Part shown: positions 17,385 to 41,162 of the stretch, one piece after another
How positions within the stretch are numbered: position 1 is the first letter of the stretch
How the letters are laid out: each line of letters starts with the position of its first letter
From: Thermaerobacter marianensis
GTDB taxonomy: Bacteria; Bacillota; Sulfobacillia; DVGY01
NCBI GenBank assembly: GCA_020724425.1
Contig: DYGY01000002.1
Coordinates: 102,662-166,661 of the forward strand
Length of the DNA stretch: 64,000 nucleotides
Reading direction: 5' to 3'
Position numbers and translations under genes: made by a program
Notes under the pieces: generated by a model
What the model was told of the DNA's origin: nothing
Databases searched by the model: none
What the model saw: only the letters and a program-made list of their open reading frames with translations

Positions 17385-18575
17385 CTAAGCAAATACCTTC
17401 TTTACTCTCTCAATCGCCCAGTCTAATTCCTCTTTAGAGATAATAAGTGGTGGAGCAAAACGAATGACAGTGTCATGGGTTTCCTTGGCTAGAACACCTT
17501 CTTCTTTTAACCTTTCACAGTATGGCCTTGCTTTGGTAGTAAGTTCAATCCCCACAAAGAGTCCCTTGCCACGAACGTCCTTGATTTCAGGATGTTCAAT
17601 CTCCTTAAGTCTTCCTAAGAGATACTCACCTAGTTCTAGAGATTTCTCTACCAGATTCTCTTCAATAATTACCTCTAGAGCTGCTACTCCCACTGCTGCA
17701 GCTAAAGGATTACCACCAAAAGTAGAGCCATGGGAACCTGGTTCAAAAACACCGAGGATATCATCATCTGCAGCTATAGCGGAGACAGGATAGACCCCGC
17801 CGCCTAAAGCCTTACCCATAACATAAATATCAGGAACAACACCTTCCCAGTCACAAGCAAACATCCTGCCTGTACGTCCAAAACCAGTCTGAATCTCATC
17901 AGCAATAAAGAGGACGTTATTTTCCTGACAAACCTTCTGAGCATCCTTTAAGAAGCCTTCAGGAGGAATAATGATACCTGCCTCTCCCTGAATGGGTTCA
18001 ACCATGAAAGCAGCGGTATTCTCAGTGATTGCTCCTTTTAAGGCTTCAATATCTCCATAGGGAATAATCTTAAAACCAGGAGTTAAAGGACCAAAATCCT
18101 TTTTGTAGTCCTCATCTGAAGAAAAAGAGATAACAGTAGTTGTTCTACCATGGAAATTACCTGAACAGACAATAATTTCTGCCTTATCCTTCTGTGCTCC
18201 CTTTACCCTGTAGGCCCAACGTCTAGCTGCCTTAATGGCAGTTTCTACAGCTTCAGCCCCAGTATTCATGGGCAGGATCTTCTCTTTACCTGTCACTTCA
18301 CTAATTTTCTCATACAAAACACCGAGTTGATCATTGTGAAAGGCCCTTGATGTTAAGGTAACCTTATCAGCTTGATCCTTTAATGCCTGAATAATCTTGG
18401 GATGTCTGTGTCCCTGATTCAAAGCAGAATATGCACTAAGCATATCCATATACCGATTACCCTCCGGATCCTCAACCCATACACCTTCAGCTTTGGAGAT
18501 AACTATCGGTAATGGCAGATAGTTTTTTGCTCCATACTTCTCTGTCTGAGTAATTACTGCTGTACTCTTAACCAT
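17385..18575 (-). CDS. rocD: Ornithine--oxo-acid aminotransferase
   Basis: '[50 protein letters not shown]' is RocD-like; '[13 protein letters not shown]'. Confidence 0.92.
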
Positions 18576-18587
18576 GAACAATCCTCC

Positions 18588-39470: not shown

Positions 39471-41162
39471 CTATAACTCAGTACCATCAACAACCTCAAA
39501 ACCCAGTTTCTCTGCTTCTGATACTAGGAAATTTATGCTCTCAGTCCTAGTCCTATCACCCAGACTCTTATGCTCATAAGCTCCGGTAAGAGCTAGAACC
39601 ATAGTTTCAGCCAGACAAGCTGGCACCTGATTCTCACCAAAATGAACATCAAGATTCCCCTTAAACCCTCCTGGAGGTCTAACAACTCCCCCGGGAATAA
39701 CTTTAACATCAGGCACATCAGCAACCTCAGGACTCACATCCGGTGGCCTACCTATATCAAATACAATGGCACCAGGCTTCACATGCTCAGGAAAGATAAC
39801 AGCTTCCGGTGAAGAAGTAGCGGTAAAGATGATATCTGCCTCCGGCAAAAGATCATACTTAGTATCAGCAACAACCTCTGTATCAGAAAACCGTTTGGCA
39901 ACAACCTTTCGAGATCTCTCTAATCTCTCCGCATTCCTGCCAATCATGATTAGCTTCCCAACTCGATCACCAATGCTGCGAGCAATTCCTAGACCAACAA
40001 CACCATTAGCACCAACAATAGCGGCAGTTATCTCTGATTTGTCCTTGCCCTCAAGAGCAGCTAAAGCTCTTTCAATACCAATCTTAACAGTCCCTGCAGT
40101 ATAACCCCCACCATTGGTGACCGGTATATCAATACCCTCCTGAACATCCATACCCTTGTTACCAACAACTGACCAGAATGCTCCCAAACCAATATCTCTT
40201 GCTCCCAAATCCCTTGCCAACCTTGCTGCCTGTTTAGCTCTTTTTAACGCTAAATCTGGTTCAGACACAATTTGTTCCGCAAAAAGAGGAGCACCAAGAA
40301 TATATACCCTTAACCGTTTTCCATCTTTGCTCTCAATCCCCACATACTCATCTAGCTTCATGGGTCTCATAAACCTGCCAAGATAGCGTACCATACGCTC
40401 ATTTAAGAGCCCCGCTCTATACATACTCTCCAACCAGCCAAACCTTGGTGGTTGCCAGAAATCATCCACAGTCATCGGGTGAACCAGAAAAGCACAAGCA
40501 ATCTCACCTTCACCACTAGGTAAAGGTCTCTCCTGCCCCAACCTCACCTCAATACCATCTAAAACTCTCCCCAGATTCTCCTTATGCCTCCAGAGAATCA
40601 ACAGAAAAACTAAACCTAAAACAAGAGCCACATCATACTTACCCAAGAAAACATAAACAACAGGAACTACTAAAGCTCCAGTCACATTGGCTAAAGAGGG
40701 ATAACCCCATTGATCAGACCATAACCTCGGTAGACTAACCACAATTGCCCAAGTCAGCATACCCGCAACAACAGGTATAAAGGAGCCTCCTCCAAGACCC
40801 AAACCAAAAACAGCACCAAACAAAACTGTTACACCACGGCCCCTAGAGGGTTCCTTCTCCGGACTCAACCATCTCAAGAAAGGAGAATATAGATGACCAG
40901 CTACAACACCCATTACACCAAAAACCGCTGCTTCCGGCCAAAATAGTCCCACAACAACCGGTATAAAAGCTCCCTTTAAAAAATCAACAGCAAGAAAAAG
41001 GATTGTACGCAATACACCAACCTCTTTAATAGATGCACCAAACCCCACATTATAACCATGACTTCTCCGGGTCTTAACCCCTGTCCACTTACCTAACCAG
41101 TATCCCACTGGTATGGTACCAACAAGGAAACCACCAGCCAAAGCTAATATCCCCTGAATCAC
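39471..41162 (-). CDS. Fusion protein: divergent PlsY-like acyltransferase membrane domain (aa ~1-210) plus acyl-ACP reductase (AAR)-like Rossmann domain (aa ~220-563)
   Basis: N-terminus 'GTIPVGYWLGKWTG...NVGFGASIKEVGVLRTILFLAVDFLKGAFIPVV...GHLYSPFL...GRGVTVLFG...WRHKENLGRVLDGIE' follows PlsY order; C-terminus 'TGGGYTAG..IVGANGVVGLGIARSIGD...GRNAERL...PACLAETMVLALTGAYEHKSLGDRTRTESINFLVSEAEKLGF' follows cyanobacterial AAR. Confidence 0.75.
   Translation of the reverse strand: MIQGILALAGGFLVGTIPVGYWLGKWTGVKTRRSHGYNVGFGASIKEVGVLRTILFLAVDFLKGAFIPVVVGLFWPEAAVFGVMGVVAGHLYSPFLRWLSPEKEPSRGRGVTVLFGAVFGLGLGGGSFIPVVAGMLTWAIVVSLPRLWSDQWGYPSLANVTGALVVPVVYVFLGKYDVALVLGLVFLLILWRHKENLGRVLDGIEVRLGQERPLPSGEGEIACAFLVHPMTVDDFWQPPRFGWLESMYRAGLLNERMVRYLGRFMRPMKLDEYVGIESKDGKRLRVYILGAPLFAEQIVSEPDLALKRAKQAARLARDLGARDIGLGAFWSVVGNKGMDVQEGIDIPVTNGGGYTAGTVKIGIERALAALEGKDKSEITAAIVGANGVVGLGIARSIGDRVGKLIMIGRNAERLERSRKVVAKRFSDTEVVADTKYDLLPEADIIFTATSSPEAVIFPEHVKPGAIVFDIGRPPDVSPEVADVPDVKVIPGGVVRPPGGFKGNLDVHFGENQVPACLAETMVLALTGAYEHKSLGDRTRTESINFLVSEAEKLGFEVVDGTEL

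Follow-up and report, generated by a model that had tools for sequence, protein, structure and literature searches.

The acyl-ACP reductase (AAR) of Synechococcus elongatus forms fatty aldehyde from acyl-ACP or acyl-CoA through a mechanism in which the acyl group moves to Cys294 and is reduced by NADPH (PMC7089970). Contacts with the aldehyde deformylating oxygenase (ADO) are made through R73, R79, K80, and R118, while His7 hydrogen-bonds a residue that pulls the AAR domains together (PMC7089970). PigE joins thioester reductase and aminotransferase activities; thioester reduction was observed in lysate, the purified protein being without reductase activity (PMC8341465). TamH, acting with TamA, carries acyl-ACP to aldehyde and on to amine, and uses NADH (PMC9594044). 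Here, we compare with these systems a protein in which a reductase of this kind follows a PlsY-fold membrane domain, an arrangement for which no description was found in a search of CC-licensed papers.

The gene lies on the minus strand (39471..41162) of a 64,000-nucleotide stretch of Thermaerobacter marianensis DNA (the window), where it stands alone between convergent nar genes and copA/csoR. It begins with GTG and encodes 563 amino acids in a single frame containing no internal stops. A preliminary description made from the DNA letters had proposed one reading frame with a PlsY-fold N-terminus and an AAR-fold C-terminus, and Pfam, NCBIfam, and Foldseek bear this out. The membrane domain comprises residues 1–205 (40548..41162, minus strand, as for all features below) and matches Pfam PF02660 (G3P_acyltransf) at residues 11–199 with 83 bits, against a gathering cut-off of 24.1. 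A short linker, delimited by secondary structure and pLDDT in a predicted model as residues 206–219 (40506..40547; ~14 residues), leads to the reductase domain at residues 220–560 (39483..40505), assigned by NCBIfam, phmmer, Foldseek, profile search, and phylogeny, within which Pfam places a Shikimate_DH Rossmann-like domain at residues 374–489. Neither Pfam nor Foldseek detected a class III aminotransferase domain in the polypeptide. The AlphaFold2 model, computed from 28 fusion proteins (the window protein and loci from a scan of GTDB contigs), has a pLDDT of 88.5 and a pTM of 0.87. Its best solved match in the PDB is AAR (6jzu, E 2e-16), followed by the carmabin-pathway domain 9e4u and PlsY 5xj5 (E 4.6e-7, TM-score 0.79 by target length). 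A profile of the same 28 fusions scored 5xj5 at 3.6e-32, AAR at 3.7e-23, and PigE at 3.2e-23.

The catalytic elements of AAR are found in the C-terminal half. Cys516 (codon 39615..39617) falls in the column of the catalytic Cys294 by both phmmer and MAFFT, at the head of a Cys-Leu-Ala-Glu segment (39606..39617) whose Glu519 corresponds to AAR Glu297. As had been predicted, it lies 47 residues from the C-terminus, like Cys294 in the 341-residue S. elongatus enzyme, and the alignment around it is ungapped ('vpaclaetmvlal' over 'mfacfaeamllef'). The AAR sequence used for that prediction is identical to 6jzu, so the comparison stands. The dinucleotide loop GANGVVG occupies residues 384–390 (39993..40013; AAR 162–168), and His228 (40479..40481) corresponds to AAR His7, described above (PMC7089970). 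In an alignment of 46 fusion domains, 24 standalone and six aminotransferase-fused relatives, and AAR, no variation occurs in the columns of Cys294, Glu297, Thr128, or the first two glycines of the loop; the His7 column is equally constant, save for one truncated row that has a gap there. In most fusions from Deinococcota, Ala takes the place of the third glycine. At the AAR pocket for the NADPH 2'-phosphate (R189, R193, R314), the window protein has Arg, Arg, and Asp.

The fusion thus shares with cyanobacterial AAR (TIGR04058, 6jzu) the C-terminal fold, the Cys, Glu297, His7, the dinucleotide loop, and the spacing of the Cys from the C-terminus. In other respects the two differ: identity is ~21%, the AAR model TIGR04058 scores 50.3 bits, far below its equivalog cut-off of 449.7, the TTGN motif reads TNGG, and a membrane domain precedes the reductase. 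At the positions of R73, R79, K80, and R118, the window has Pro, Lys, Arg, and Gln, and across the fusions position 73 is Pro or another residue and position 118 nearly always Gln, changes that make an ADO partner unlikely. The preliminary description had also reported no ADO nearby, and there is none among the neighboring genes inspected around the fusion in the window. Given the altered ADO interface and the failed AAR cut-off, we reject the cyanobacterial alkane pathway. The label “cyanobacterial-type”, originally given to this domain, is therefore not supported: PigE scores higher, both with NCBIfam (126.6 bits at residues 270–556) and in phmmer searches of the PDB (4ppm, 2.4e-20, versus 2.3e-11 for 6jzu and 1.7e-7 for PlsY 5xj5). 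The domain resembles the PigE/TamH branch as much as it does cyanobacterial AAR. It falls in that branch by score and, like PigE and TamH, is joined to another domain; in contrast, its partner is a PlsY-fold membrane domain, and aminotransferases of PigE/YgjG type are encoded by separate genes. In all likelihood, the reductase half is an aldehyde-forming thioester reductase.

Fusions elsewhere match the window protein at 42–50% identity. Six of 154 genomes of the window's class have it full-length: the window genome G000 and, at 44–50% identity, G015, G036, G052, G145, and G090. Of 399 genomes sampled across the phylum, two (G000 and G145) carry the fusion, and a standalone AAR-like protein of ~340–370 amino acids is common. 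A scan of GTDB contigs with an alignment recovered 44 loci, a single-protein query having returned nothing; they come from Thermus, Meiothermus, Calidithermus, unnamed Thermaceae, MAGs labelled Armatimonadota or Actinomycetota, and a few others. Within the Deinococcota, 109 of 112 genomes, Truepera radiovictrix among them, encode a protein matching the reductase domain, in nearly all cases a full-length fusion; the three exceptions (G615, G619, G643) gave weak matches of PlsY strength only. In two loci, L169 (Thermus parvatiensis) and L173, the fusion is split across two frames, through pseudogene formation or sequencing error. A search of plasmids yielded AAR/PigE/TamH-like reductase regions and no fusions.

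In a quick tree with long branches, 32 fusion reductase domains form one fully supported clade, apart from the standalone and aminotransferase-fused relatives, which suggests that the fusion probably arose once. Since the fusion recurs full-length in many genomes, chance and a frame or assembly artefact are ruled out, and the single open frame and single clade likewise dispose of an ordinary PlsY misread with a fused neighbor. The window genome also encodes a standalone AAR-like paralogue (L032:4142-6146, G000:C37), the start of which overlaps a 301-residue reading frame that has no Pfam match. Five other genomes of the class (G022, G014, G021, G035, and G053; loci L036, L038, L039, L040, and L042) carry Symbiobacterium-type proteins in which a class III aminotransferase precedes an AAR-like domain. 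These resemble the fusion in having the AAR-like domain at the C-terminus and differ in the aminotransferase identity of the N-terminal half and in their reductases, which carry an insert and make up a clade of their own.

Gene neighborhoods carry little common signal. Two clusterings, of ~50 and ~30 loci, revealed no conserved lipid genes beside the fusion. Nearby genes in the Thermaceae are infC-rpmI-rplT and an MqnB-like gene; elsewhere in the Deinococcota they are dnaB- and prmA-like. In G015 (L033:5760-9626) a polysaccharide deacetylase gene, the fusion, and a BadF-family (GlcNAc-kinase-like) gene stand in a row, the last two overlapping by 4 nucleotides. The MqnB-like neighbor and this deacetylase/kinase operon are local features.

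The aldehyde has a possible destination in the Deinococcota. A phospholipid of Deinococcus and Thermus containing a fatty amine was described in the 1980s. N-glyceroyl-alkylamine phospholipids are a lineage marker of Thermus, Meiothermus, and Deinococcus (PMC3035268, PMC3398001, PMC3111992), and the alkylamine of T. thermophilus carries an iso-heptadecanyl chain (PMC3398001), which is what an iso-C17 acyl thioester would be expected to yield. N-glyceroyl alkylamines also occur in some Bacillota, among which they are reported in Moorella (PMC13274423). A search of CC-licensed literature found no paper naming the enzyme that makes the Deinococcus/Thermus fatty amine.

We propose a model in which Cys516, in a cytosolic C-terminal domain, takes the acyl group from acyl-ACP (or acyl-CoA), the acyl-enzyme is reduced by NAD(P)H bound in the GANGVVG loop, and fatty aldehyde is released at the face of the membrane, to which the seven-helix PlsY-fold domain would tether the reductase. 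In the Deinococcota, and possibly in the window organism, the aldehyde would most likely be aminated by a separate class III aminotransferase of PigE/YgjG type, and the resulting fatty alkylamine would enter N-glyceroyl-alkylamine lipids. We put the probability of this reading as a whole, a membrane-anchored thioester reductase supplying aldehyde for the alkylamine of Deinococcota lipids, at roughly 0.45. Of the lipid product first suggested for the gene, membrane-delivered aldehyde is still the best inference, a fatty amine being likelier than an ether lipid as its further fate.

The amine branch of this model is the more tentative part. PigE, TamH, and, in the window's class, the Symbiobacterium-type proteins each unite reductase and aminotransferase in one polypeptide, and fusion-bearing genomes often encode a separate aminotransferase of PigE/YgjG type. 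In Meiothermus granaticius such a gene lies on the strand of the fusion, 6 kb upstream of it, and the best PDB matches of its product are YgjG (9e-112) and PigE (3e-103), ahead of ornithine aminotransferase (1e-87); the best PDB match of a Truepera aminotransferase is PigE (1e-64). The window genome has a YgjG-type enzyme, which may be an ordinary putrescine enzyme; the class III aminotransferase of the window itself (17385..18581), used as a control, is ornithine-type. No close PigE/YgjG-type aminotransferase was found in G145 or G546, and no lipid genes were found beside the aminotransferase candidates. The candidates may not form a single clade, and we regard the link that they provide to alkylamines as suggestive. 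Also against the model stand the lack of conserved lipid genes beside the fusion and the wide occurrence, within the window's phylum, of standalone AAR-like genes, some of them in lineages not known to make alkylamines.

A different fate for the aldehyde, conversion into long-chain 1,2-diols, fatty alcohols, or ether lipids instead of alkylamines, is unlikely. Thermomicrobium roseum is an all-diol organism. A zinc alcohol dehydrogenase gene lies upstream of the fusion in G145 (L081:3344-4576), an arrangement seen in that genome only. Some Thermus and Meiothermus, and probably Truepera, contain long-chain 1,2-diols (PMC3072082, PMC3035268), which have no assigned biosynthetic pathway (PMC2615216); all three genera carry the fusion. 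However, diols are apparently minor in M. ruber, and none are known in Deinococcus, where the usual methods would miss them (PMC3072082), yet almost the entire phylum carries the fusion.

The PlsY-derived half was at first called a PlsY-like acyltransferase; its site has been remodelled. Most of the PlsY motifs listed for it are in place, but two of them, 'NVG..AS' and 'GRGVT', are where catalytic residues have changed. Positions of the PlsY site were tabulated in 51 fusions using Aquifex aeolicus PlsY numbering. His92 and Gly39 are retained in all 51, in contrast to Ser35 (six), Thr41 (two, with Glu in 41), His177 (17, lost in the other 34), and Asn180 (30). Position 102, Gly in 97.9% of PlsY homologues (PMC5700162), is Arg in every fusion, and position 104 is always Arg or Lys. 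In the window protein, His92 corresponds to His90 (40893..40895), an acyl-phosphate contact in PlsY (PMC5700162), and Gly102-Gly103-Lys104 to Arg107-Gly108-Arg109 (40836..40844); its site reads Gly35, Gly41, Lys45, Arg102, Arg104, His177, and Asn180. The glycerol-3-phosphate clamp (Ser35, Arg45, Lys104, Asn180) has thus become Gly, Lys, Arg, and Asn, and of the two acyl-phosphate contacts His92 is kept and Thr41 is replaced by Gly. Compared with PlsY (PF02660, TIGR00023, 5xj5), the fusion retains the seven-helix fold, His92, Gly39, Arg183, and Glu189, and in the window also His177 and Asn180, but it differs at Ser35, Thr41, Arg45, Lys104, and Gly102 and scores 61.7 bits with TIGR00023, below the equivalog cut-off of 137.2. 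In A. aeolicus PlsY, most substitutions tested at the changed sites cost more than 80% of activity (PMC5700162). The changes at Ser35, Thr41, and the Arg45/Lys104 pair make acyl transfer doubtful, and the fusion probably lacks ordinary PlsY activity. Nor is it needed for glycerolipids in the window genome, which has two other PlsY genes (one of 182 bits) and PlsX. As the tested defining features of neither family are all present, the fusion should be classed neither as a cyanobacterial AAR nor as a working PlsY; the preliminary observation is confirmed and its interpretation partly supported.

A truly bifunctional enzyme, with a PlsY domain that still transfers acyl groups to glycerol-3-phosphate (or some comparable alcohol phosphate) and a reductase that draws on the same pool to form aldehyde, is accordingly improbable for most of the family. 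The case for it comes from two Actinomycetota-labelled MAGs, G545 and G547 (L149, L153), in which no PlsY homologue other than the fusion was found and the fusion keeps Ser35, Asn37, Thr41, Arg45, Lys104, His177, and Asn180, a state that may be ancestral. These two excepted, the residue counts above suggest that glycerol-3-phosphate acylation by the fusions is unlikely. G145, G090, and G543 likewise yielded no PlsY homologue besides the fusion, there in degenerate form, but PlsX, the source of acyl-phosphate, was not found in these genomes or in G537 and G545. In G015, G036, and G052, the sole other PlsY homologues are G015:C51 (L103), G036:C19 (L109), and G052:C15 (L117); the first two were inspected, and in them 'ENPGGNA(T/A)W' replaces the GSGN-GATN motif. 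A second kind of PlsY fusion also occurs in the class: in L105 (G009:C21), L107 (G035:C6), and L110 (G012:C265), a divergent PlsY-like domain is followed by a polysaccharide deacetylase in proteins of 468–488 amino acids, confirmed by Pfam for L105 and L107, with further cases suspected from the length of reading frames.

The retained residues could alternatively serve to present acyl-phosphate, instead of acyl-ACP, to the reductase, making the protein a membrane acyl-phosphate reductase. Other Cys-dependent dehydrogenases reduce acyl phosphates, and His92 and a basic residue at 104, both at the acyl-phosphate site of PlsY, are joined by an invariant Arg102 in all 51 fusions. However, most fusions have Glu in place of Thr41, the residue that contacts the carbonyl of the acyl-phosphate, PlsX, the usual maker of acyl-phosphate, was not found in the five genomes named above, and we know of no relative that reduces acyl-phosphate, so that we consider this reading quite improbable. 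A regulatory, non-enzymatic protein with both domains acting as lipid sensors only, which would fit the degenerate PlsY site and the uninformative gene neighborhoods, is very unlikely given that the reductase half is the better conserved (54% mean identity to the window versus 33% for the PlsY half) and its catalytic residues are invariant.

Returning to the membrane-anchored thioester reductase, the phosphate-binding His and basic loop of PlsY are kept and most contacts with glycerol-3-phosphate and the acyl carbonyl are lost or changed, so the PlsY-like domain probably binds lipid or passes it on rather than acylating glycerol-3-phosphate. In its most specific form, which we advance with reserve, the fusion would be the missing aldehyde enzyme of Deinococcus–Thermus N-glyceroyl-alkylamine lipids, and its PlsY half a new membrane site, usually with Glu41 and always with His92, Arg102, and Arg/Lys104, where the acyl or aldehyde chain would be handled and glycerol-3-phosphate left unacylated.

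Its near phylum-wide conservation in the Deinococcota and a chemistry fitting the first step toward a fatty amine make the fusion a good candidate for that step in the synthesis of Deinococcus and Thermus membrane fatty amines, and it is carried by strains of both genera with working genetics. The PlsY fold appears here remodelled for another use, and genes annotated as PlsY in fusion-bearing genomes may not encode acyltransferases.
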